A stretch of 64,000 nt of DNA from Thiobacillus sp. (GTDB lineage: Bacteria; Pseudomonadota; Gammaproteobacteria; Burkholderiales; Thiobacillaceae). Position numbers and translations under genes: made by a program. Positions 31,049 to 41,623 of the stretch are shown here, piece by piece. Location of the stretch: positions 1 to 64,000 of the forward strand of contig JAUXRY010000012.1 of assembly GCA_030679915.1 (NCBI GenBank), written 5' to 3'. Numbering within the stretch: the first letter of the stretch is position 1; each line of letters starts with the position of its first letter. Below the pieces are notes generated by a model that did no database searches, was not told the origin of the DNA, and saw nothing but the letters and a program-made list of their open reading frames with translations.

Positions 31049-32080
31049 TCAGTGAGCGGGCAGGTCGAAATGCTGCATCAGGCGCTGCGGAAGCCAGTCG
31101 ATGTTGCCGGGGAACGGTCCGGAAGGAAAGGCAACGTGTCCCCCTGTAGCGGGTTGTTCCAGTGTGACCGCTGAAGAAACTTGCGAAGAATCCGGCAGTG
31201 CCCATTCAGGCAGGAAAGGGTCGTTTCTGGCGTTAAGCACCAGCGTCGGGACCGCGATGAATTTTAGCCAGGGCTTGGATGAGACCTTTAACCAGTAGTC
31301 GTTGGCATCGCGAAAGCCATGCAAACGTGCAGTGACCAGCGTGTCAAATTCCTGGAACGTCGTCGCAGCCTCGATTGCCACTGCGTCGAGCGTACCGGGA
31401 AAGCGCTCGGCTTTTATCAAGGCCTTGCGCTTGAGCGTGGTTAAAAAGCGCGCGGTATAGGTATACCGATTAAAACCCTGGTCGAGGGCATTTCCTGCCG
31501 CTGTGAGATCAAGTGGCGCCGAAACCCCGGCCGCACGACTGACCAGTTTTTTGGCGGATTCACCGGATTCGCCGAGCCATTTGAGCAACGCGTTGCCGCC
31601 CAGCGAAACGCCGACAGCATAGAGCGGCACGTCTGGCATGCGACTTTTGACGTGCTTGAGCATGCGTTCGATTTCTTCGCTGTCGCCCGCAAAATACGCA
31701 CGCGGCAAGCGGTTCGCTTCTCCTGACGTGCCCCTGAAATGAGCGACAACGCCGTTCCAGTTTCTTTGTTTGACCGTGTCCATGAGGTCGCGGGCGTAAT
31801 GGCTGTCTGAACTGCCTTCGAGCCCATGGAACAACACTACAACTGGCGCGTCCGCGTCACCGTCCACCCAGTCGAAATCGAGGAAGTCGCCGTCATCAAG
31901 TTCCAGTCGCTCGCGTCGGTATTCAACCTTGTGCACCGAGATGAAGACACTGCTATAAATAGTTTGCAGATGACCGCCCGGTAACCAGGCCGGGGCGGAG
32001 TAAGGTTCGACTGCGTAAGCGTGCATGGCCGCCATCATGGCGGCACAGGCAATAGCGAGGCAAGTCTTTCGCGTGCTCAA
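31049..32080 (-). CDS. YheT-family alpha/beta hydrolase
   Basis: The protein has 343 residues with a probable signal peptide (AIACAAMMAAMHAYA). The YheT markers are APAWLPGGHLQTIYSS, VVLFHGLEGSSDSHY and the nucleophile elbow GVSLGGNALL. A His-containing GGHVAF closes the triad region. YheT proteins are esterase-like with undefined substrates. An N-terminal export signal is not usual for the family. The gene overlaps the ChrR-like cupin gene by four bases and so belongs to the ECF sigma operon. Confidence 0.88.
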   Translation of the reverse strand: MSTRKTCLAIACAAMMAAMHAYAVEPYSAPAWLPGGHLQTIYSSVFISVHKVEYRRERLELDDGDFLDFDWVDGDADAPVVVLFHGLEGSSDSHYARDLMDTVKQRNWNGVVAHFRGTSGEANRLPRAYFAGDSEEIERMLKHVKSRMPDVPLYAVGVSLGGNALLKWLGESGESAKKLVSRAAGVSAPLDLTAAGNALDQGFNRYTYTARFLTTLKRKALIKAERFPGTLDAVAIEAATTFQEFDTLVTARLHGFRDANDYWLKVSSKPWLKFIAVPTLVLNARNDPFLPEWALPDSSQVSSAVTLEQPATGGHVAFPSGPFPGNIDWLPQRLMQHFDLPAH

Positions 32081-32538
32081 CTGCGATGCGCGTGCTGCTC
32101 AATCGCCCCGCGTACGAACAATAAACAGCCATTTTCCGACGTTAGCCAGTCGTGGGGTTTGCCTTGCGGGGCTAGATGGTAATCCCCCTGCCGACACAAT
32201 ATGCCGTCTACCGTTGCATCGCCTTCCAGAACCAGGCACTCCTCGTCGACCGGATGGTCGTGCGGCGGAAGCCGCGCACCGGGGGCGATGCGCAGAAGAT
32301 ACGAGCGGCTCTGCGCATCCTGCCGCAGAATCTTGAGTTCGACTCCTTTGCGCAACCTAACCCATTCGCCTTCGTGGCTGTGAATGAACATGTAAGTCGT
32401 TGCCGATCCGTGTACGCGCTGGAAGAGCTGCGTGCGTATCCGCTGGCTGGTTTCTGTGTCAGGAGCGAGAGCGGACTCACCGCTGGCGAGGGCGTCGATC
32501 AAAAAAGCATCAAGGACGGGAGGAGTGGTTTTTTTCAT
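32077..32538 (-). CDS. ChrR-like cupin protein, likely regulator of the ECF sigma factor
   Basis: This 153-residue protein has a ChrR-type cupin domain with metal ligands in LPPHDHPVDEECLVLEG and a later His in YHLAPQGKPHDW. In Rhodobacter ChrR an N-terminal zinc domain binds the sigma factor and the cupin domain responds to singlet oxygen. Here the N-terminal 50 residues are short and lack the H-x3-C-x2-C zinc motif, so the mode of sigma control may differ. It sits 8 bases after the sigma gene and overlaps the YheT gene, a normal sigma/anti-sigma arrangement. Confidence 0.82.
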   Translation of the reverse strand: MKKTTPPVLDAFLIDALASGESALAPDTETSQRIRTQLFQRVHGSATTYMFIHSHEGEWVRLRKGVELKILRQDAQSRSYLLRIAPGARLPPHDHPVDEECLVLEGDATVDGILCRQGDYHLAPQGKPHDWLTSENGCLLFVRGAIEQHAHRS

Positions 32539-32545
32539 GACGGCC

Positions 32546-33127
32546 TCATGCCTGACAAAGAACAGTGCGCAGACACTCCTGCGCGCGTTTGAGATGGGAT
32601 TTGACTGTGCCCAGCGGCAGACCGGTCTGATCGCATATTTCCTGATGCGTCAGGTCCTTGTAAAAGGCCAGTGCGATCAGTTGGCGCTGGGTAGGACTCA
32701 GGGCGCCGAGTGCGGACCTGAGGGCGTTTGCACGTTCTTCCTGCAACACCCGTTCCAGCGGGGTAGCTGATGGGCATGGTTCAGTCTCCAGGTATATCTC
32801 GGGTTCGGCGCAATAACTCGTACGGTCAAGTTTACGCAACGCATCAAGAGCACGGCTGCGCGTCATCACCATCAGCCAGGCCAGGGGTTCGCCGCGCAGT
32901 GCATCGTAGCGACCGGCTTCGCGCCAGCTTTGCCAGAACGTCTCGATGCAGACTTCTTCGGCCAGCTCGCGGCGGCCGGTGATCTTCATCGCAAGCCCGA
33001 ATACACGTGGAAGTGTCAGGTCGTAGAGGCGACCCAACGCCACTTCATCTCCTGCAGCCATAAGCTCGATCAGCGCTGCAAGTTGCAGGCCGTTCGAACT
33101 TTCCAAGGATTGAGGATTGGCACTCAT
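32546..33127 (-). CDS. ECF-family RNA polymerase sigma factor
   Basis: The 193-residue alternative sigma factor has region 2 visible as VALGRLYDLTLPRVFGLAMKI, ELAEEVCIETFWQSWREAGRYD and PLAWLMVMTRSRALD. Region 4 includes LSPTQRQLIALAFYKDLTHQEI and GLPLGTVKSHLKRAQECLR. The start MSANPQS at 33127 is chosen by family length. ATG at 33175, with GGAA upstream, is possible. Its own promoter region shares an element with two other transcription units, suggesting self-activation. The partner is the adjacent cupin protein. Confidence 0.92.
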   Translation of the reverse strand: MSANPQSLESSNGLQLAALIELMAAGDEVALGRLYDLTLPRVFGLAMKITGRRELAEEVCIETFWQSWREAGRYDALRGEPLAWLMVMTRSRALDALRKLDRTSYCAEPEIYLETEPCPSATPLERVLQEERANALRSALGALSPTQRQLIALAFYKDLTHQEICDQTGLPLGTVKSHLKRAQECLRTVLCQA

Positions 33128-33204
33128 CACGCTGATTATAGCGTTCGTGCTAGTCCGGCTCATTGCAAGATTCATCGATATTCCAGTTGGAAGGGCTCTT
33201 TTCT

Positions 33205-33235
33205 CAATACGCACATCTCCTCTATTTGGATGCAC
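33205..33235 (-). promoter_or_regulatory. Shared ECF promoter-like element, site 1 (sigma operon)
   Basis: On the minus strand GTGCATCC (33235-33228), 16 bases, then CGTATTG (33211-33205). The same two blocks with the same spacing occur at 33525 and 37344. It lies 30-80 bases before the sigma gene start options. Blocks and spacing fit a -35/-10 pair of an ECF sigma factor. Confidence 0.7.
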
Positions 33236-33524
33236 AGGAATTTCCCGACCGCGCTTGTTTTCGTCTGAGCTGCTTTATTTGTAGCGTGCAAGTTTTAATC
33301 CATTCGCTCGACGTAACGAATATGAGATGGCTTGGGATGACCGCATTTTTGATAAGTTCCGTGACGATTCACTTTTTACTACGGGATTTTAGGACGTGTC
33401 TGACAGCAATCACGTGCAACCCGACCACAATGGTCCATCTGCGATCGGGTCGATCAGTATGTCGGCATCGGTGCACGTGCTTTATTCTTTTGCAAGCTTC
33501 ATCAGCGCAAAGGTTTCATGAAAC

Positions 33525-33554
33525 GTGCATCCAATATCAAACGGCCAGCGTAGT
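33525..33554 (+). promoter_or_regulatory. Shared ECF promoter-like element, site 2 (DUF4331 gene)
   Basis: GTGCATCC (33525-33532), 16 bases, then CGTAGT (33549-33554), about 62 bases before the DUF4331 ATG. Between the two divergent copies (33236-33524) I see no gene; a 141-residue frame there has no family character. Confidence 0.7.
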
Positions 33555-33616
33555 AACAAAATGGTTGGCAAAATGCCACCCACGTTGAAATTTCGACATA
33601 ACTACTAGGAGGTCTC

Positions 33617-35176
33617 ATGAACCGCATTCTGAACCGCACGTTGCTGAGCATTGCCCTGACATTTGCCTTGACTCATACGGGACAGGCTGCCAATCACCGC
33701 GAAGCGCCGATTACCGCACTCGATCACAAAGCCGATATCACCGATGTCTATGCCTTCCGCAGCTATAGCGGCGATGCAACGCCTAAAGTCACACTTATTA
33801 TGGGTGTGGACCCTTTTCTCGAGCCCGCGAACGGACCGAACTGGTTTCCGTTTGATCCGGACATCCTGTACGAACTGAAGGTGGACAACAATAACGATGC
33901 CAAACCTGATGTCGTGTTTGAATTCCGCTTTGTGACCGAACAGCGTTTGCCTGGCTTGTTCCAGGTTTATGCCGGCATCGAAGGTGGCGCGGTCGCACCC
34001 GCCAATTCGCCGTCTCCGGTAGCTCCCGGCACCCCTATCGTGCCCGATCGCATCAACAGTTTTGACAGCCCCGGTCTGGGCCAGATTCAGCGCTACACGG
34101 TCACCATGGTGAAATACAACACGAATGGCCAGGTCATTTCACGCCAGGTGCTGGCGCAGAATTTGCCAGCTGTTCCCGCCAATGTCGGTCCGCGCACGAT
34201 GGATTACAGTGCGCTCTACCAGGCTGGAATTCACACCCTGCCGGGCGGCGCCAAGTCATTTGCCGGCACGACTGACGATGCCTTCTGGATTGATCTCGGT
34301 GGCGCATTTGATACGTTCAACACGCATATCTTCCCCGTTCTGACCGCTGCACAGGATGCGGCCGCCGAGAATTTTGCGCCCGATACGGTTTCTGGATTCG
34401 CGGTTAATCATATTGCGGTTGAAGTTCCTGTTGCCATGCTGACCCGCACCGGACAGGTAGAGTCTGCCACATCTACGGCTGCAACCATTGGCGTCTGGGC
34501 GACGACTTCGCGTCCGCAGGTAACAGTGCGTCGTTCACCGCTCCCTTCAAGCAGTCAGGGCCAATGGCGTCAGGTTCAACGCATGGGAAATCCACTGATC
34601 AATGAATTGCTGATCGGCACCGGCTCCAAAGACCGTTTCAGCATGGATGTACCGGCTAATGACGGCCAGTTCGCAAGCTTCCTGCTCGACCCTGCATTGC
34701 CGCGCGTGATCAACGCATTGACGAATGGAGCGGTCGCCATTCCCGCCGCACCGCGTACCGATCTGCTGCCGGTCGTGACGTATGCAGCGCCGATCGCTGC
34801 GGCGGGAACGCCTGCTGGGCCGGTTGCCGATTTGCTGCGTCTTAACACCGGCGTAGCACCGACCGCTCCCGCCAGTGCCAGTCGTCTTGGCCTGCTGGGA
34901 GGCGACGTCGCAGGTTTCCCCAACGGACGCCGTGTGTTTGATGACGTGACCGATGTGGCGTTGCGCATAGTCGTAGGGGGTGTACTCGCTGCGACGTTCC
35001 CGGGTTATGACGCCAACATTGGCGGCCGACTCGGTGACGGCGTTAATGTCAACGATACCGCCTACAAGACCAGCTTCCCCTATGTGGGTGAAGCACCGTC
35101 GGGTCGTGACCGGCGTCATATAGACCCAGGTGAGCCAGGCTGTACCGCAGGTGGCGGAGCCGACTGCCCGCAGTAA
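33617..35176 (+). CDS. Secreted DUF4331 family protein
   Basis: This 519-residue exported protein has a signal ending GQAAN. It opens with the DUF4331 hallmark NHREAPITALDHKADITDVYAF and holds PNWFPFDPDILYELKVDNNNDAKPDVVFEF broken over two strands. It ends near cysteines (GCTAGGGADC). Family function is unknown; members are large secreted beta-rich proteins. A strong AGGAGG precedes the ATG. The upstream element shared with the ECF sigma operon makes it a likely target of that sigma factor. Confidence 0.9.
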   Translation: MNRILNRTLLSIALTFALTHTGQAANHREAPITALDHKADITDVYAFRSYSGDATPKVTLIMGVDPFLEPANGPNWFPFDPDILYELKVDNNNDAKPDVVFEFRFVTEQRLPGLFQVYAGIEGGAVAPANSPSPVAPGTPIVPDRINSFDSPGLGQIQRYTVTMVKYNTNGQVISRQVLAQNLPAVPANVGPRTMDYSALYQAGIHTLPGGAKSFAGTTDDAFWIDLGGAFDTFNTHIFPVLTAAQDAAAENFAPDTVSGFAVNHIAVEVPVAMLTRTGQVESATSTAATIGVWATTSRPQVTVRRSPLPSSSQGQWRQVQRMGNPLINELLIGTGSKDRFSMDVPANDGQFASFLLDPALPRVINALTNGAVAIPAAPRTDLLPVVTYAAPIAAAGTPAGPVADLLRLNTGVAPTAPASASRLGLLGGDVAGFPNGRRVFDDVTDVALRIVVGGVLAATFPGYDANIGGRLGDGVNVNDTAYKTSFPYVGEAPSGRDRRHIDPGEPGCTAGGGADCPQ

Positions 35177-35186
35177 AAGCAGGGTT

Positions 35187-35214
35187 GTGTTGACGGGCTT
35201 TGGCCTGTCAACAC
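35187..35214 (+). terminator. Hairpin after the DUF4331 gene
   Basis: GTGTTGAC and GTCAACAC enclose a 12-base loop that can itself pair (GGGC/GGCC). No T-tract follows, so it may be an attenuating or mRNA-protecting hairpin. Downstream TPR expression may be partial read-through. Confidence 0.55.
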
Positions 35215-35242
35215 ATTTGGGCAACTGTTTAGAGAGAACGTA

Positions 35243-36451
35243 ATGATTCGCCACATATTTCTGATTGCTTTGACATTGTTGCTGGGTCACCTCCCGGCCT
35301 ATGCAGAGCCTGTACCTCTTCCCGAATTTTCTCCTGCCGAGCAGCGAATCAGCCTTGCGCGTAAAGCTATCGACAAGAACCCTCAACGCTATGAAGCGCA
35401 TGCCCAGCTTGCCATGGCCTTGGCGCAACGCGCCCGTGAAACCTCCAATACGATGTATTACACCCAGGCAGAAACCGCCGTTCTGCAATCGCTGAAACTT
35501 TCACCTGGCAACCTCGAAGCACGGCGGGTACAAATCTGGGTAATGCTGGGCAAACACGAGTTTGCCGATGCGCTGGTCGCAGCCCAGGCGTTAAACAAGC
35601 TGATACCTGATGATGTTCAAACCTACGGCTACCTGACTGATGCCAATATCGAACTCGGCCACTATGCGGAGGCAGAGCGTGCTGCGCAATGGATGCTCGA
35701 CCTGCGTCCCGGCAACATTCCGGGCCTGACGCGCGCCGCCTATCTGCGCGAGTTGTATGGTGATCTACCAGGGAGTCTGGATCTGATGGCGCAGGCTTAT
35801 CAACGCACTCCCATCACCGAACGCGAAGACCGCGCATGGTTGCTGACGCATATGGCCCACCTGCAATTGGTCAGCAAGCAGCCTCAACGGGCCGACGATC
35901 TGTTGACTCTGGCCTTGCAGCAGTTCCCTGATTATCACTATGCGCTGGCACAGCGGGCGAAAGTCCGTCAGGCCCAGGGTCGCCATGCCGAGGCTGTTGC
36001 TTTTTATCGACAGCATGTAGCCGTTGCGCCTCACCCTGAGAATTTTTTCTATCTTGGTGAAGCATTGTTGCAGCAGGGACAAAAACGTGAAGCCAGACAG
36101 GTTTTCACTAAATTCGAAACGCTGGCACGTGCCGAAAGTCTGTCATGGGATAACGCCAATCGCGAACTGATCGCCTATTACGCCGACTATGCCAAGCGGC
36201 CAGCCGATGCACTGAAACTGGCTGAAGCCGAAATGACGCGCCGCCAGGACATCCATACGCTGGACGCCTACGCCTGGGCACTATATCTCAACGGGAAATA
36301 CACGCAGGCCCAGCAGGTCATCGATCGTGCCCTGGGTGTTGGCGCGCTTGATGCCCAGTTGCACGATCACGCACGCAGGATAGCTGAGAAAAGCGGTGCG
36401 GTCGGCAAGCAACTTCGAAATTCTGAAACTCATAAACTGGGATGGCTTTGA
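35243..36451 (+). CDS. Secreted TPR-repeat protein
   Basis: This 402-residue protein has a signal peptide ending AYAEP and then a chain of helical tetratricopeptide repeats along its whole length, for example YEAHAQLAMALAQRAR, PDDVQTYGYLTDANIELGHYAEAERA and YHYALAQRAKVRQAQGRHAEAVAFY. It is probably a periplasmic or outer-membrane scaffold. It lies 66 bases downstream of the DUF4331 gene in the same direction and probably works with it; the process is not known. Confidence 0.85.
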   Translation: MIRHIFLIALTLLLGHLPAYAEPVPLPEFSPAEQRISLARKAIDKNPQRYEAHAQLAMALAQRARETSNTMYYTQAETAVLQSLKLSPGNLEARRVQIWVMLGKHEFADALVAAQALNKLIPDDVQTYGYLTDANIELGHYAEAERAAQWMLDLRPGNIPGLTRAAYLRELYGDLPGSLDLMAQAYQRTPITEREDRAWLLTHMAHLQLVSKQPQRADDLLTLALQQFPDYHYALAQRAKVRQAQGRHAEAVAFYRQHVAVAPHPENFFYLGEALLQQGQKREARQVFTKFETLARAESLSWDNANRELIAYYADYAKRPADALKLAEAEMTRRQDIHTLDAYAWALYLNGKYTQAQQVIDRALGVGALDAQLHDHARRIAEKSGAVGKQLRNSETHKLGWL

Positions 36452-36554
36452 TATTTCAGACCGAGGACCGACTTGCTTGATGCATGCGCGGGGAACGATG
36501 GTGTGAGTTGGTGTCACGCTTTTTAATATCGATTTTTAATGAGGAGATTTTCCC

Positions 36555-37274
36555 ATGCTAGCCATCCGCTCTACCCTGATCACTTTGCTGTTTGCCGGAT
36601 ATGTGGGGATTGCCCAATCCGCGCCCATTGTTTTCACTGACACCAGTTACACCACCTTTGCACAGGCTGATGCCGGCAATGCCAGCGGTGGACCCGATAG
36701 TGCGTTTACGATGAACCTATTGCCGATCAGTTCAGCGGCAGCCGCCACGAGTGACGACGGTGACTCCGCATCAGCCGTGGCATTTGCCGACACTCCGATG
36801 TTCCTCACCGCCACCAACGATGCTTTCGGCGTGTCAGGCCCGGCGTCTTCCAATGCCGTCGCGACGTTCACAGGACTATTTGATGCATTGCCCGGATTGC
36901 TGACGCTCTCGTTTGATTTTGAATCACTGGTTGAACAGATGACGAACGGTTTCGGCAACAATTCTCTTGCGGTCACGCTTGAGGTCGGTGGCATTACCTT
37001 GTTCAATGACATCCTGTTTGCTTCAGGTTCGATCAATCAGCAATTCCTGCTGGCCACCGGTGGCTCGGGATTGTTTGACCTTACGCTTATTAGTACGGCT
37101 GATGCGTCAGCCGGTGATTCAGCGTTCAGCCTGGGCACCGTGAATGCTTCGCTTGACGCCGTGGCAGCCTCGGCTGTACCAGAGCCAGCCAGTGTTGCCT
37201 TGTTGATGACGGGATTGCTCGGACTGGGTTTCATGCGTCGCGGTCAGTTATCTGCGCGTTTGAAGATGACCTAA
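36555..37274 (+). CDS. PEP-CTERM sorted protein
   Basis: This 239-residue exported protein has a signal ending AQSAP and a C-terminal sorting tag: VPEPASVALLMTGLLGLGF, then MRRG. This tag is cut by an exosortase, and the protein is delivered to the envelope or extracellular matrix in bacteria making exopolysaccharide. The middle is Ala/Ser/Asp-rich beta-type sequence of unknown function. GAGGAG precedes the ATG. No exosortase gene is in the window. The neighbourhood suggests a surface role together with the DUF4331 and TPR proteins. Confidence 0.88.
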   Translation: MLAIRSTLITLLFAGYVGIAQSAPIVFTDTSYTTFAQADAGNASGGPDSAFTMNLLPISSAAAATSDDGDSASAVAFADTPMFLTATNDAFGVSGPASSNAVATFTGLFDALPGLLTLSFDFESLVEQMTNGFGNNSLAVTLEVGGITLFNDILFASGSINQQFLLATGGSGLFDLTLISTADASAGDSAFSLGTVNASLDAVAASAVPEPASVALLMTGLLGLGFMRRGQLSARLKMT

Positions 37275-37343
37275 GTTTCAGCGCGGATTTAACCTTCGCC
37301 GCACAGCACAAGGCGAATCCGGAGATAAAGAATGCATAGGAGG

Positions 37344-37374
37344 GTGCATCCACCGCGGGTCACGGTCCGTAATT
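37344..37374 (+). promoter_or_regulatory. Shared ECF promoter-like element, site 3 (before the broken FGE-like gene)
   Basis: GTGCATCC (37344-37351), 16 bases, CGTAATT (37368-37374). Block sequence and spacing equal sites 1 and 2. It lies just upstream of the wrecked formylglycine-enzyme gene, which suggests that gene once belonged to the same regulon. Confidence 0.65.
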
Positions 37375-37388
37375 GCTGTGAATTGTGA

Positions 37389-37866
37389 ATGTTGAATCCA
37401 TCCCGGGTACGTCAAACGCGTACTCAATATTCAGCCCTCGCTTCTTGGGTAATCTATCTGCGACAAGTGATCTTTCCGATTTTCGCCTTGCTGCTCCTGC
37501 TGGCAAGTCAAGCCGCCTTTGCTGAAACGGATCTGGTCGATACCGACTTTGTCAGGCTGGAGAATGCATGGGAATGGGTAGGCGATCGGTATCAAACGGA
37601 CTATTACGCGCCTAGTCTCGCTGTCGATTCGTCAGGCCCGGCAAGCGATGAGCGGCGTGTCAGACGGGGCGGCTCCTACTCATTGCGAACCCCATCAGGT
37701 GCGCGTAATTTACCGCGCGGTCGATACCCCGGACACCTGCTATTCGGCAATCGGTTTCAGGGTGCTGCGCGAGGCAAAATGCCCCGGATTAGATAAATAT
37801 AAGACTGCTACTTTGCGGCCGAGCTGCAGTCTGGGACTAATGCAATACTTGAGACGGCGGATGTGA
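37389..37866 (+). pseudogene. Formylglycine-generating-enzyme (FGE-sulfatase) domain remnant with frameshift
   Basis: The first frame gives a signal peptide (FPIFALLLLLASQAAFAET) followed almost at once by ENAWEWVGDRYQTDYY and RRVRRGGSY, parts of the C-terminal third of the FGE-sulfatase domain. The domain then continues in the next frame as HCEPHQVRVIYRAVDTPDT and YSAIGFRVLREAKC. One extra T at about 37680 accounts for the shift. The N-terminal two thirds of the domain are missing, so there is an internal deletion plus a frameshift. The product cannot be an active enzyme. Confidence 0.75.
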
Positions 37867-38280: not shown

Positions 38281-39948
38281 TCAGTAATACCAGATCAGGC
38301 TGGCACCCAGATAGTTCCGGGTGTAACCGCTGCCGGTTCGCAAAAAAGCGCTGCTGTCGCTGCCGCCCGTATGCAGGCGTAGCCGAAACTGTGGTGCCAG
38401 ATCGCGTGAGGCGGACAACTCCCAAGCATACAGACCGCTGCTGCCACCGGGTGTTTCCCACAGTTTTCCCAACGCCAAACGTGCTTCCAGCAGCCAGCCT
38501 GCGGCTTCCTGTTCGGCGCGAGCTTGCAGCTTGAGTTCACGGTAGTGTTCAGGATTGTAATAACCGCGCGCGATGGCGGGATCCGAGTTGCTGAATCCCA
38601 TGCCTTCCACACCCACAATGATACGGGGCTGCGACGAGGTAAGCGTGTGTTCGACACGACCAATCACCCGCGTACGCTGGTTACCATCGTCAAAGCGCAG
38701 CACGGCACCGCCCAGGGTGGCGCTCCAACGGGGTGCAAAGCGCCAGTCTGTGCTGGCGGAGAATACGTTGAGTGTGACCTTGTTGTTGATGGACTGGATG
38801 TTTTCGATCACGTCATTGCCGGCTTCAAGGTCGATACGCCAGAAATCTGCCGGAATCCACTTGCCTTGCAGTTTCCAGGCAGCTGTCTGCCAGCCGTCAT
38901 AGTCGCGGACGCCTACTGTCAATGCAGGCCAGAACAAGCCTTGCTCGATATTGCCCACACGGGAACCGACCTTGATCAGCAGTTGGCGGCCATCGATACG
39001 GCGTCCGTTTTGCTCGATACGGGCACCGCGTGCAGAAACATCAAGCGAGCGCCCTGCGTTGAAGTGTTGTTGCCAGCCCAGGCTCACGGCATGGATGTCG
39101 AGCTGGTCGCTGTCCCATGAAGTATCGAATTCGCCACGGATGGAAGAGCTGGTTTCCCGTTTGAGCGTGTTGCGCAGGGTCGCTGCATCGGCTCCTTCAG
39201 CGTTGCCCAAAGTCGACCAGGCACTGTCTTCCAGCCCTGACCACCGCAAGGCAAGTGCGCGCTCCACCCGGGTGTCGCGTGCGAGCTCAGGGTTATCCGC
39301 TATCGCCGACGCATAGGCTGCGACCGCATCGAAATGGCGGCCACGGGCGTTGAGTGCGCGCGCGAGCCCGATACGGGCATGCCGATTCTCGGGGTGAGAT
39401 TCCGTGATGGTGCGGTATTTCACGGCGGCCTCATCGTGACGGTCCAGCCATAAAAGCATCCGGGCTTCACCCAGACGAGCCTGAAGGTTGTCGGGCGGGC
39501 CTGACATTGTGCGGTACACCACCAGGGCCTCGGCAAATCGATTGCTGAGGGACAAGGATTCGGCGAGGCCGAGCAAGGCTTCGGTTTTTTGTGCTGGCAC
39601 CTGTTGTGAAACTTCCTGGAACAGCGGAATCGCTTCGGTATGACGGCCCCCCCAGGCGAGTTGCCACGCCAGGGCCAACAGTACGTCATATCGTCGCCGG
39701 GGTGCAGTTGCGAGTACTTGCTGATAAAGGCTTGCAGCGGGCTGATGCTGGTCTGACCACGCACGAACGCGCGCGGCTTCTATCATTAAATCGGCCTGGC
39801 CGGGTTGCTCGGCCAATAGCACATCGTACAAGGTGTTGGCCTCGGCATAGCGCTGCTGGTCGACCAGCGCGCGCGCCTGATTCAGGTCAGCGCCCAAGGC
39901 GGAAATACTGAGACCGAGACCGGCGATCAGGAACAGCCGTTTGATCAT
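38281..39948 (-). CDS. TPR-plus-beta-barrel outer-membrane protein (PgaA/YaiO-like)
   Basis: This 555-residue exported protein has a signal ending SALGA. The N-terminal half is TPR helices (QQRYAEANTLYDVLLAEQPGQ and similar). From about residue 290 the sequence becomes alternating amphipathic strands ending LGASLIWYY, an outer-membrane barrel terminus. PgaA has the same order (TPR then barrel) and exports poly-GlcNAc; the barrel here looks closer to the YaiO type and is smaller. It overlaps the glycosyltransferase gene by four bases, so I infer a polysaccharide export role. Confidence 0.85.
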   Translation of the reverse strand: MIKRLFLIAGLGLSISALGADLNQARALVDQQRYAEANTLYDVLLAEQPGQADLMIEAARVRAWSDQHQPAASLYQQVLATAPRRRYDVLLALAWQLAWGGRHTEAIPLFQEVSQQVPAQKTEALLGLAESLSLSNRFAEALVVYRTMSGPPDNLQARLGEARMLLWLDRHDEAAVKYRTITESHPENRHARIGLARALNARGRHFDAVAAYASAIADNPELARDTRVERALALRWSGLEDSAWSTLGNAEGADAATLRNTLKRETSSSIRGEFDTSWDSDQLDIHAVSLGWQQHFNAGRSLDVSARGARIEQNGRRIDGRQLLIKVGSRVGNIEQGLFWPALTVGVRDYDGWQTAAWKLQGKWIPADFWRIDLEAGNDVIENIQSINNKVTLNVFSASTDWRFAPRWSATLGGAVLRFDDGNQRTRVIGRVEHTLTSSQPRIIVGVEGMGFSNSDPAIARGYYNPEHYRELKLQARAEQEAAGWLLEARLALGKLWETPGGSSGLYAWELSASRDLAPQFRLRLHTGGSDSSAFLRTGSGYTRNYLGASLIWYY

Positions 39949-41216
39949 GATGCAATTTCCTGGGCGAAATCCTTACGTACAGTGTGCCAGCGAATTGACT
40001 GACGCGAGGGACGCCGGAACAGCCAAAGCAGCGAGATGAAGTTGGCCCATGCCAGGAGCATCCAGTACACAATCGGGTAGTACACGGCATAAGGATAATA
40101 TTTCAGCGTATCGGGATCGTAGCGTCGATCCATCAAGGTGCCGGTGAGCAATTGCAGCATGGCCAGCGTGGCGATCACCATGCCCCACAGGTTGGGGAGG
40201 GGGTGCGCGCCTACCGGCGGATAGCCTGCCGCATAGGACACGGCCCATAAGCTGGTGAGCACGACAAAGCAGGCCGCCCACAGGATGGACAATGACGATT
40301 CAATATAAATCGGCCACATGCGGCGGTATTTCCAGTGCATGATCACGTCGCGATGCTTGTGTAACACCTGCATCAGGCCGCGTGACCAGCGGCGGCGCTG
40401 ACTGAACAGTGCAGAAAGGGTGGAGGGCACCGTCATCCATACCAGCGCGCGCGGTTCATAGCGAATGTCCCAGAAACGCCGTTGCAGCTTCCAGGTGAGC
40501 TCGATGTCTTCGGTCGGCATTTCCGGTGAGAAACCACCGACGTCAAGCAGGGCTGATTTGCGGAAGGCGGCCACCACGCCGGATACCGTCATGATGCGCC
40601 CCCATATGCGTTGCGAGCGACGCAGCAAGCTGACGATCGAGCTGAATTCGATCAGTTGCAGCCGGGCCAGAAAGGTGTCCACATTCTTGACGCGCGGATT
40701 GCCGGTAACCGCAGCGACCCGCGCATGATCGAAGTGCGGCAGCATGTGCTGGAGTATGTCAGGCGCCGGCTCGGCATCGGCATCCATGATGAGCACGATC
40801 TCTCCATTCAGACACGGCAGGGCATCATTCATCGCCATGGCCTTGCCTTCGTTCTGCTGTTTGGCGATCAGCCGTACCTGGCCCGTCCGGACGTATTGTT
40901 CTACGACACTACGCGTGTTGTCGGTGGAGCCGTCGTCGACCACCACGATTTCATAATGGGGATAGTCGATGGCTGTCACGGCTGCCAGCGCGTGGGCAAT
41001 GACCCGTTCTTCGTTATGGGCCGGGATCAGTATCGAGACACTGGGGTAGTGGGTGAGTGCGACCGGGGCTTCATGTTTTTCCCAGCGGTTGCGGAAAAAA
41101 AGTGAAGTGGTGATCCACATCACGCTGGTGACGATCGGATATGCCGCAAAAAAAATGATCGCGATCCAGTAGGCCCAACTGTGCTGGATCGCGCCCAGAA
41201 AATCGATAAGAGTCAT
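39945..41216 (-). CDS. Processive family 2 glycosyltransferase (PgaC-like)
   Basis: This 423-residue membrane synthase has one N-terminal span, a GT2 domain and C-terminal spans. The catalytic set is VVVDDGSTDNT, MDADAEP, a later TEDIELTWKL acidic residue and QRRRWSRG (the QxxRW motif of processive enzymes). Poly-beta-1,6-GlcNAc synthases PgaC/IcaA are the nearest known type by layout, but cellulose- or hyaluronan-like products cannot be excluded. It is coupled by four-base overlaps to the PgaD-like gene before it and the porin gene after it. Confidence 0.92.
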   Translation of the reverse strand: MTLIDFLGAIQHSWAYWIAIIFFAAYPIVTSVMWITTSLFFRNRWEKHEAPVALTHYPSVSILIPAHNEERVIAHALAAVTAIDYPHYEIVVVDDGSTDNTRSVVEQYVRTGQVRLIAKQQNEGKAMAMNDALPCLNGEIVLIMDADAEPAPDILQHMLPHFDHARVAAVTGNPRVKNVDTFLARLQLIEFSSIVSLLRRSQRIWGRIMTVSGVVAAFRKSALLDVGGFSPEMPTEDIELTWKLQRRFWDIRYEPRALVWMTVPSTLSALFSQRRRWSRGLMQVLHKHRDVIMHWKYRRMWPIYIESSLSILWAACFVVLTSLWAVSYAAGYPPVGAHPLPNLWGMVIATLAMLQLLTGTLMDRRYDPDTLKYYPYAVYYPIVYWMLLAWANFISLLWLFRRPSRQSIRWHTVRKDFAQEIAS

Positions 41217-41623
41217 GATGCGAAGCGTTGCAGGTGCGGTGATGATTCATGCTGGGCATGAAAACACTTTTTTTCGCTGTTGCTCAGAATGGTGATGCTG
41301 CGTGCCTGCTTCAGTTGATCGAAATTGGCCTGTATCGCCCGCCCCATCCAGTCTTTCTCATAGCGCGTTTCAACGACCTGAACCTGTCGCCGCGGTCCTT
41401 TATGTGCGTAGATCCCCCGGTTATGCTGGACCCATAAAAGCGTAATGATAGGCAGGAGTATCAGTGCACCAGAGAATAGCCAGATGATGCTGGAAAGCGA
41501 GTTTGATGTTTGCTGCAGGACCACCCACCAGAGTCCGCCAAAAAGGCCCCAGCCAAGTATGACAAGGATGATATGCCAGACAACATGGAGCGGTCCGGAC
41601 AAGGCTGGACGCTGGAAAAGCAT
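41213..41623 (-). CDS. PgaD-like small membrane subunit
   Basis: This 136-residue protein has two hydrophobic helices (about 15-35 and 44-63) followed by a soluble, charged tail. PgaD of E. coli has the same layout and forms the c-di-GMP-responsive synthase complex with PgaC. Sequence likeness is limited, so the name rests on size, topology and position directly before the PgaC-like gene. If it works like PgaD, polymer synthesis would be stimulated by c-di-GMP, which is inference. Confidence 0.75.
   Translation of the reverse strand: MLFQRPALSGPLHVVWHIILVILGWGLFGGLWWVVLQQTSNSLSSIIWLFSGALILLPIITLLWVQHNRGIYAHKGPRRQVQVVETRYEKDWMGRAIQANFDQLKQARSITILSNSEKKCFHAQHESSPHLQRFAS

Follow-up and report, generated by a model that had tools for sequence, protein, structure and literature searches.

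A repeated two-part element as a candidate promoter shared by an ECF sigma factor operon and a DUF4331 operon in Thiobacillus sp.

We analysed a 64,000-nucleotide (nt) stretch of DNA from Thiobacillus sp. (assembly GCA_030679915.1, contig JAUXRY010000012.1, positions 1 to 64,000), referred to below as the window, in which the two-part element GTGCATCC-N16-CGTA occurs three times near genes for an extracytoplasmic function (ECF) sigma factor, a DUF4331 protein and a remnant of an FGE-like protein. The three sites are very probably −35/−10 promoter elements that would be recognised by the product of the ECF sigma gene at 32546–33127; this sigma factor would be held by a cupin protein and would switch on the DUF4331 operon. 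That the neighbouring sigma factor reads the motif is suggested by its position and by co-occurrence across genomes, while the cupin–sigma contact, the limits of the operons and the signal are what we infer. Three short repeats thereby lead to a predicted regulon whose promoter code is exact and can be tested, and DUF4331, a family of unknown function, gains a regulatory context.

The element in the window and in related loci

The scanned assembly comprised 2,519,593 bases, was approximately 80% complete and included the window as its contig 25. The pattern GTGCATCC-N16-CGTA matched exactly at three places in the whole assembly, all of them in the window (Table 1), compared with 0.35 matches expected genome-wide from base composition and 0.0007 per 5 kb; the reversed-pattern control gave 0 matches in the assembly. 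All three copies were thus found in the orientations described by an earlier sequence-only reading, and its view that repetition by chance is unlikely was borne out. Frequent matches inside coding sequence, named there as a finding that would speak against the element, were not seen for the exact N16 pattern in the genome-wide scan. The copy before the ECF gene had been placed at 33235–33205; the first of these ends was right and the second was off by three bases, the true end being 33208. When one mismatch was allowed, TGCATCC-N16-CGTA gave 33 matches in the same genome (the 3 exact ones included) and the control 23. Since this equals background, the one-mismatch matches were not taken as regulon members. 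The variant YGCATCC-N17-CGTA matched five times (control, 0), always inside stop-to-stop frames of 237–735 codons, and these five are probably chance matches, which we did not count as regulon members. Lying in such a frame is a loose criterion, for the ECF site does so too, in a 242-codon frame formed by upstream prolongation of the ECF frame. Mechanical calling of open reading frames starts the ECF gene at GTG 33235, the first three bases of the −35 block as originally described, and an annotation with this start would therefore hide the promoter inside the gene. An alternative in-frame ATG start is present at 33175.

For comparison we used the best 80 of 441 loci obtained in a scan for relatives of the ECF gene (1,136,352 bases); these loci are related sequences, some of them nearly identical, and the counts were not deduplicated. 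The closest named relatives of the window ECF gene were labelled Hydrogenophilales, Hydrogenophilaceae and Thiobacillus. The pair TGCATCC-CGTA was found 79 times at a spacing of 16 and 13 times at 17, once each at 13 and 14, and not at 15 or at 18–20, and the reversed control gave 0 at N15–N17. This peak agrees with the proposal that the blocks and their spacing fit an ECF −35/−10 pair. Changing any single consensus base lowered the count from 79 to 0–6, the exception being C in place of the first T, with 15. The leading G that had been included in the element was rejected as its first base, as it was present in just 21% of 119 distinct related sites. Two preferences had been missed, a purine after TGCATCC (96% of these sites) and a G before CGTA (79%).

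An exact site was present within 350 nt upstream of 38 of the 80 ECF genes, and a site with at most one mismatch upstream of 48, compared with 0.35 in mononucleotide shuffles. The ECF gene was followed by a cupin gene in 75 loci. For DUF4331, 20 of the 26 genes in the 80 loci had a same-strand site (at most one mismatch) 42–133 nt before the estimated start; the queries were the window protein and genes found behind sites, which gives a mild bias in favour. No such site was found at the genes in L171 (a weak partial match), L198, L216, L217, L218 and L221. The recurrence of the motif near ECF and DUF4331 genes of relatives, suggested earlier as a check, was thereby observed, and the comparative data support the view that the ECF gene is autoregulated and has its promoter in common with DUF4331 and the FGE-like gene, the latter target being a remnant in the window. 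Loci bearing sites came from Thiobacillus, Nitrosomonas and Methylomonas among others, so the signal may matter to bacteria that take part in the cycling of sulfur, nitrogen and methane. One locus contained two tandem TGCATCC-N16-CGTA units with identical cores, 119 bases apart (L115:2445 and L115:2564; G137, contig 3). In a Thiobacillus relative (G030) an exact site precedes another ECF-like sigma gene by 15 nt (L106:2530), a possible sigma cascade.

The probable regulator of the sites

We then related ECF, DUF4331 and sites across 149 genomes, with presence defined by a match at E ≤ 1e-20 and with RskA-linked ECFs (described below) included in the ECF counts. An ECF match was found in 24 genomes and a DUF4331 match in 11, all of which were among the 24 (hypergeometric p 1.8e-10, kinship not corrected). 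Within the genus, both were present in the same 6 of 56 genomes (3e-8, kinship likewise not corrected); G070, from another genus, has the ECF without DUF4331. At the level of the family, the mean number of exact TGCATCC-N16-CGTA sites was 3.9 in the 7 genomes with the ECF versus 0.71 in the 83 without it (Mann–Whitney p 3.4e-6, again uncorrected for kinship), and the corresponding means for the control pattern were 0 and 0.27.

One alternative, which we consider very unlikely, is that the sites are ECF promoters read mainly by a different ECF in the same cell, such as an RskA-linked ECF. ECF relatives at 30–43% identity are followed by a gene for an RskA-type protein; RskA_C was detected in all 4 partners tested, and the other 14 were judged by eye from their N-terminal sequence. 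A midpoint-rooted tree of 104 ECF rows placed the 18 RskA-linked ECFs on the opposite side of a branch (support 100/99) from the 86 others (84 cupin-linked, 2 undetermined). A site with at most one mismatch was present upstream of 7 of the 18 (shuffles, 0.14) and an exact one upstream of 3 (shuffles, 0.01); no near site was found at the other 11, in what is a small sample gathered with a cupin-linked query. In G121 the only ECF match at E ≤ 1e-20 is RskA-linked, and exact sites precede both this ECF and DUF4331, while G105 and G118 have both ECF kinds with exact sites, plus a site before DUF4331. Against assigning the window sites to such an ECF, the sole ECF found at E 1e-20 in the genome itself adjoins them and 10 other first-look candidates fell short; as the assembly is incomplete, a further ECF may be missing from it.

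Very unlikely, in our estimate, is that the element is the operator of a conventional DNA-binding regulator. The sites do recur before several kinds of gene, as an operator might, but they consist of two unlike, non-palindromic blocks separated by 16 or less often 17 bases with the CGTA block nearest the gene, and they track an ECF gene, as expected of ECF promoters. CGTA is, moreover, the −10 block given for RpoE–ChrR promoters in the available text of PMC5507510 and PMC4336711. Chance repetition, which has in its favour that the blocks are short and nothing more, is already refuted by the comparative counts and we regard it as practically negligible.

Several observations weigh against reading of the element by the cupin-linked ECF. 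An exact site within 350 nt was absent in 41 of the 80 ECF loci (one more was cut by a contig end), and in 32 no site was found at this distance even with one mismatch, among them all 5 rows of a Rubrivivax-type clade, so that the code does not extend to the whole of this part of the sigma family. Several loci from Nitrosomonas have their sites approximately 450–2000 nt upstream, in front of other genes. Among family members without the ECF, the mean of 0.71 exceeds the control value of 0.27 and some genomes have up to 3 exact sites, so that single matches mean little. G144 has DUF4331 and no exact N16 site in the surrounding 14 kb, and the third window site precedes a remnant of a gene. At 31 of the 132 distinct sites surveyed for downstream genes (see below) no clustered gene was found; some of these sites are surely due to chance. 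Finally, because RskA-linked ECFs can follow the same motif, the motif alone does not name its sigma factor.

The last point suggests a broader arrangement, for which we see the chances as evenly balanced: in betaproteobacterial lineages TGCATCC-N16-CGTA and DUF4331 would be wired either to a cytoplasmic metal-cupin or to a membrane RskA anti-sigma factor, and sometimes to both in one genome. If true, this two-sensor wiring would mean that a conserved regulon has exchanged its sensor, and DUF4331 would be a core effector in the response to envelope redox stress. Nature may then offer an example in which sensors of two kinds act through the same promoter code.

The cupin partner and known ECF systems

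The predicted model of the cupin protein (mean predicted local distance difference test score, pLDDT, 86.8) placed two helices at the N terminus, followed by a cupin barrel. Its alignment by Foldseek to the ChrR chains of the SigE–ChrR complex 2q1z covered 143 and 147 columns; these chains ranked 5 and 11, with single-domain cupins first, and since the root-mean-square deviation was about 13, the domains are placed differently in the two proteins. The motif HxxxCxxC, characteristic of the N-terminal zinc anti-sigma domain, was found in 0 of 78 cupin frames. Two NCBIfam ChrR models scored far below their cut-offs (25.4 of 124.5 and 26.1 of 300 bits) and matched the cupin part only. Residues H93, H95, E99 and H129 (numbering of the window protein) were the commonest at their positions, in 85–96% of 52 aligned proteins; these percentages are approximate because a length limit cut those relatives that are double cupins. 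Such residues bind metal in cupins, and we take these four to be metal ligands of the C-terminal cupin. The earlier description of the partner as a ChrR-like sensor therefore holds for its cupin domain and fails for the missing HxxxCxxC motif, the NCBIfam models below cut-off and the different promoter.

The system resembles RpoE–ChrR (ECF11; Rhodobacter, Shewanella, Pseudomonas syringae) in that a gene for a cupin-bearing partner adjoins that of the ECF sigma factor, and in that the C-terminal cupin of this partner carries metal ligand residues. RpoE–ChrR promoters are given as TGATCC-N16-CGTA in the accessible parts of PMC5507510 and PMC4336711, and on this basis both systems have a promoter before their own operon and a CGTA −10 block at 16-base spacing. 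The −35 block TGCATCC found here differs from TGATCC by an extra C, the cupin partner here lacks HxxxCxxC, and the downstream families are not among the targets named in those parts of the two sources. In the 80 loci the ECF11 code TGATCC-CGTA matched once at N16 and 0–2 times at other spacers, which is chance level. The system would thus appear to work like RpoE–ChrR, but we did not file it there, because of the extra C in the −35 block and because TGATCC pairs occur at chance level in the 80 loci.

SigK of the SigK–RskA system (ECF19; 4nqw, 7.3e-23) was the best solved match of the window ECF sigma factor, with RpoE of 2q1z close behind (2.5e-21), and some RskA-linked ECFs in the order have TGCATCC-N16-CGTA upstream. 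The window partner is a cupin and not an RskA_C protein, which sets it apart from this system. The SigK promoter is of the CCATCC/CGAA type. This consensus gave 0–6 matches per spacer in the 80 loci without a peak at 16 or 17, and the ECF16-type GTAACC/CGAA likewise showed no peak at these two spacers.

If the sites are read by the cupin-linked ECF, the cytoplasmic cupin protein encoded in the same operon would hold the sigma factor until its metal centre meets a signal, for which an oxidant or a reactive nitrogen species is the likeliest candidate. The freed sigma factor would then raise expression of its own operon and switch on the DUF4331–TPR–PEP-CTERM operon, and the third site would once have served the FGE-like gene, which has since decayed.

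Our literature search returned no paper naming DUF4331 or DUF4394, none joining anti-sigma, cupin, ECF and RskA, and none combining at least three of ECF19, ECF26, fasciclin and promoter motif. For a TGCATCC sigma promoter, titles and abstract starts of the papers listed revealed none on this system; figures or supplements of ECF classifications may hold the motif, which we do not claim as unpublished.

Genes behind the sites and around them

The survey of downstream genes covered 132 distinct sites from the window, L082–L115 and L146–L225; L076–L081 were excluded, as most of them duplicate places already covered by L146–L225. Cluster names come from Pfam searches with one or two members each. 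The largest were ECF (45 sites, RskA-linked ones included) and DUF4331 (17), and further clusters were ABM monooxygenase (7), bacterial globin (5), DUF3034 (4), DUF4394 (3), Ferritin_2 (3) and cytochrome P460 (2). A Nitrosomonas protein (9) and a Methylomonas protein (3) had no Pfam match, and nine clusters (2, 6, 9, 10 and 16–20) resembled overlapping wrong frames when judged by eye. Single cases were another Ferritin_2, CHRD, YHS, FGE, a PEP-CTERM protein, an EF-hand protein and an O-methyltransferase. We infer an envelope redox signal because, among these targets, many seem to be exported proteins or members of haem, metal or redox families. Genes 324–393 nt behind single sites in relatives were dropped as too far. 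In L105 the protein resembles glutathione peroxidase by eye; in G121 (L093:2030) it is a small Cys-rich secreted protein, perhaps bufferin-like, whose gene is 324 nt from an exact site. For the DUF4331 protein the predicted model reached a mean pLDDT of 53.1 (9 sequences) without a PDB match at E ≤ 0.001, and sequence search found no solved relative at E ≤ 1; we draw no conclusion on its function from these results.

Table 1. Candidate promoter elements and neighbouring genes in the window
Feature	Position	Strand	Evidence
Candidate ECF promoter element 1 (GTGCATCC-N16-CGTA)	33208..33235	-	Exact match; upstream of ECF sigma/cupin operon
Candidate ECF promoter element 2 (GTGCATCC-N16-CGTA)	33525..33552	+	Exact match; CGTA-to-ATG gap before DUF4331, 64 nt
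Candidate ECF promoter element 3 (GTGCATCC-N16-CGTA)	37344..37371	+	Exact match; CGTA-to-ATG gap before FGE-like remnant, 17 nt
ECF sigma factor, regions 2 and 4 only	32546..33127	-	Pfam Sigma70_r2 and Sigma70_r4_2
Cupin-type presumed anti-sigma factor	32077..32538	-	Pfam Cupin_7 (ChrR cupin-like), 3.6e-18
Alpha/beta hydrolase	31049..32080	-	Pfam Abhydrolase_1
DUF4331 protein	33617..35176	+	Pfam DUF4331, 3.1e-107; signal peptide judged by eye
TPR-repeat protein after DUF4331	35243..36451	+	Pfam TPR families; order kept in L076 and L078
PEP-CTERM protein after TPR gene	36555..37274	+	Pfam PEP-CTERM; order kept in L076
FGE-like remnant, C-terminal part only, in two frames	37389..37796	+	Pfam FGE-sulfatase, below cut-off

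In the window the genes from the ECF sigma factor to the PEP-CTERM protein are split into two divergent groups, and an exact site of spacing 16 belongs to each. G019 (L076, the same place as L146) has them in a row on a single strand, in the order ECF, cupin, hydrolase, DUF4331, TPR, PEP-CTERM, and a further site with spacing 17 stands directly before DUF4331. The hydrolase is probably the last gene of the ECF operon judging from its place; in L076 it comes after the ECF and cupin genes, and in L078 it stands between those for ECF and DUF4331. The proposed tie of DUF4331 and surface proteins to a ChrR-like stress sensor is supported for DUF4331, which has an exact site; in the window neither the TPR nor the PEP-CTERM gene is preceded by an exact site, and both would be transcribed together with DUF4331, downstream of it. 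The FGE-like remnant matched the FGE protein of L149 (267 amino acids) at residues 194–236 and 235–265 only, in two frames. In L149 an exact N16 site stands 20 nt upstream of the start of a full-length FGE gene (Pfam 4.8e-47) that is divergent from the ECF gene, and the third window site therefore has a precedent. Beside the regulon, at 38281–41623 on the minus strand, are genes for a TPR/beta-barrel protein (PgaA_barrel match barely above cut-off) and, judged by eye, a family-2-like glycosyltransferase and a small membrane protein, which together look like an export cluster of the poly-N-acetylglucosamine type.

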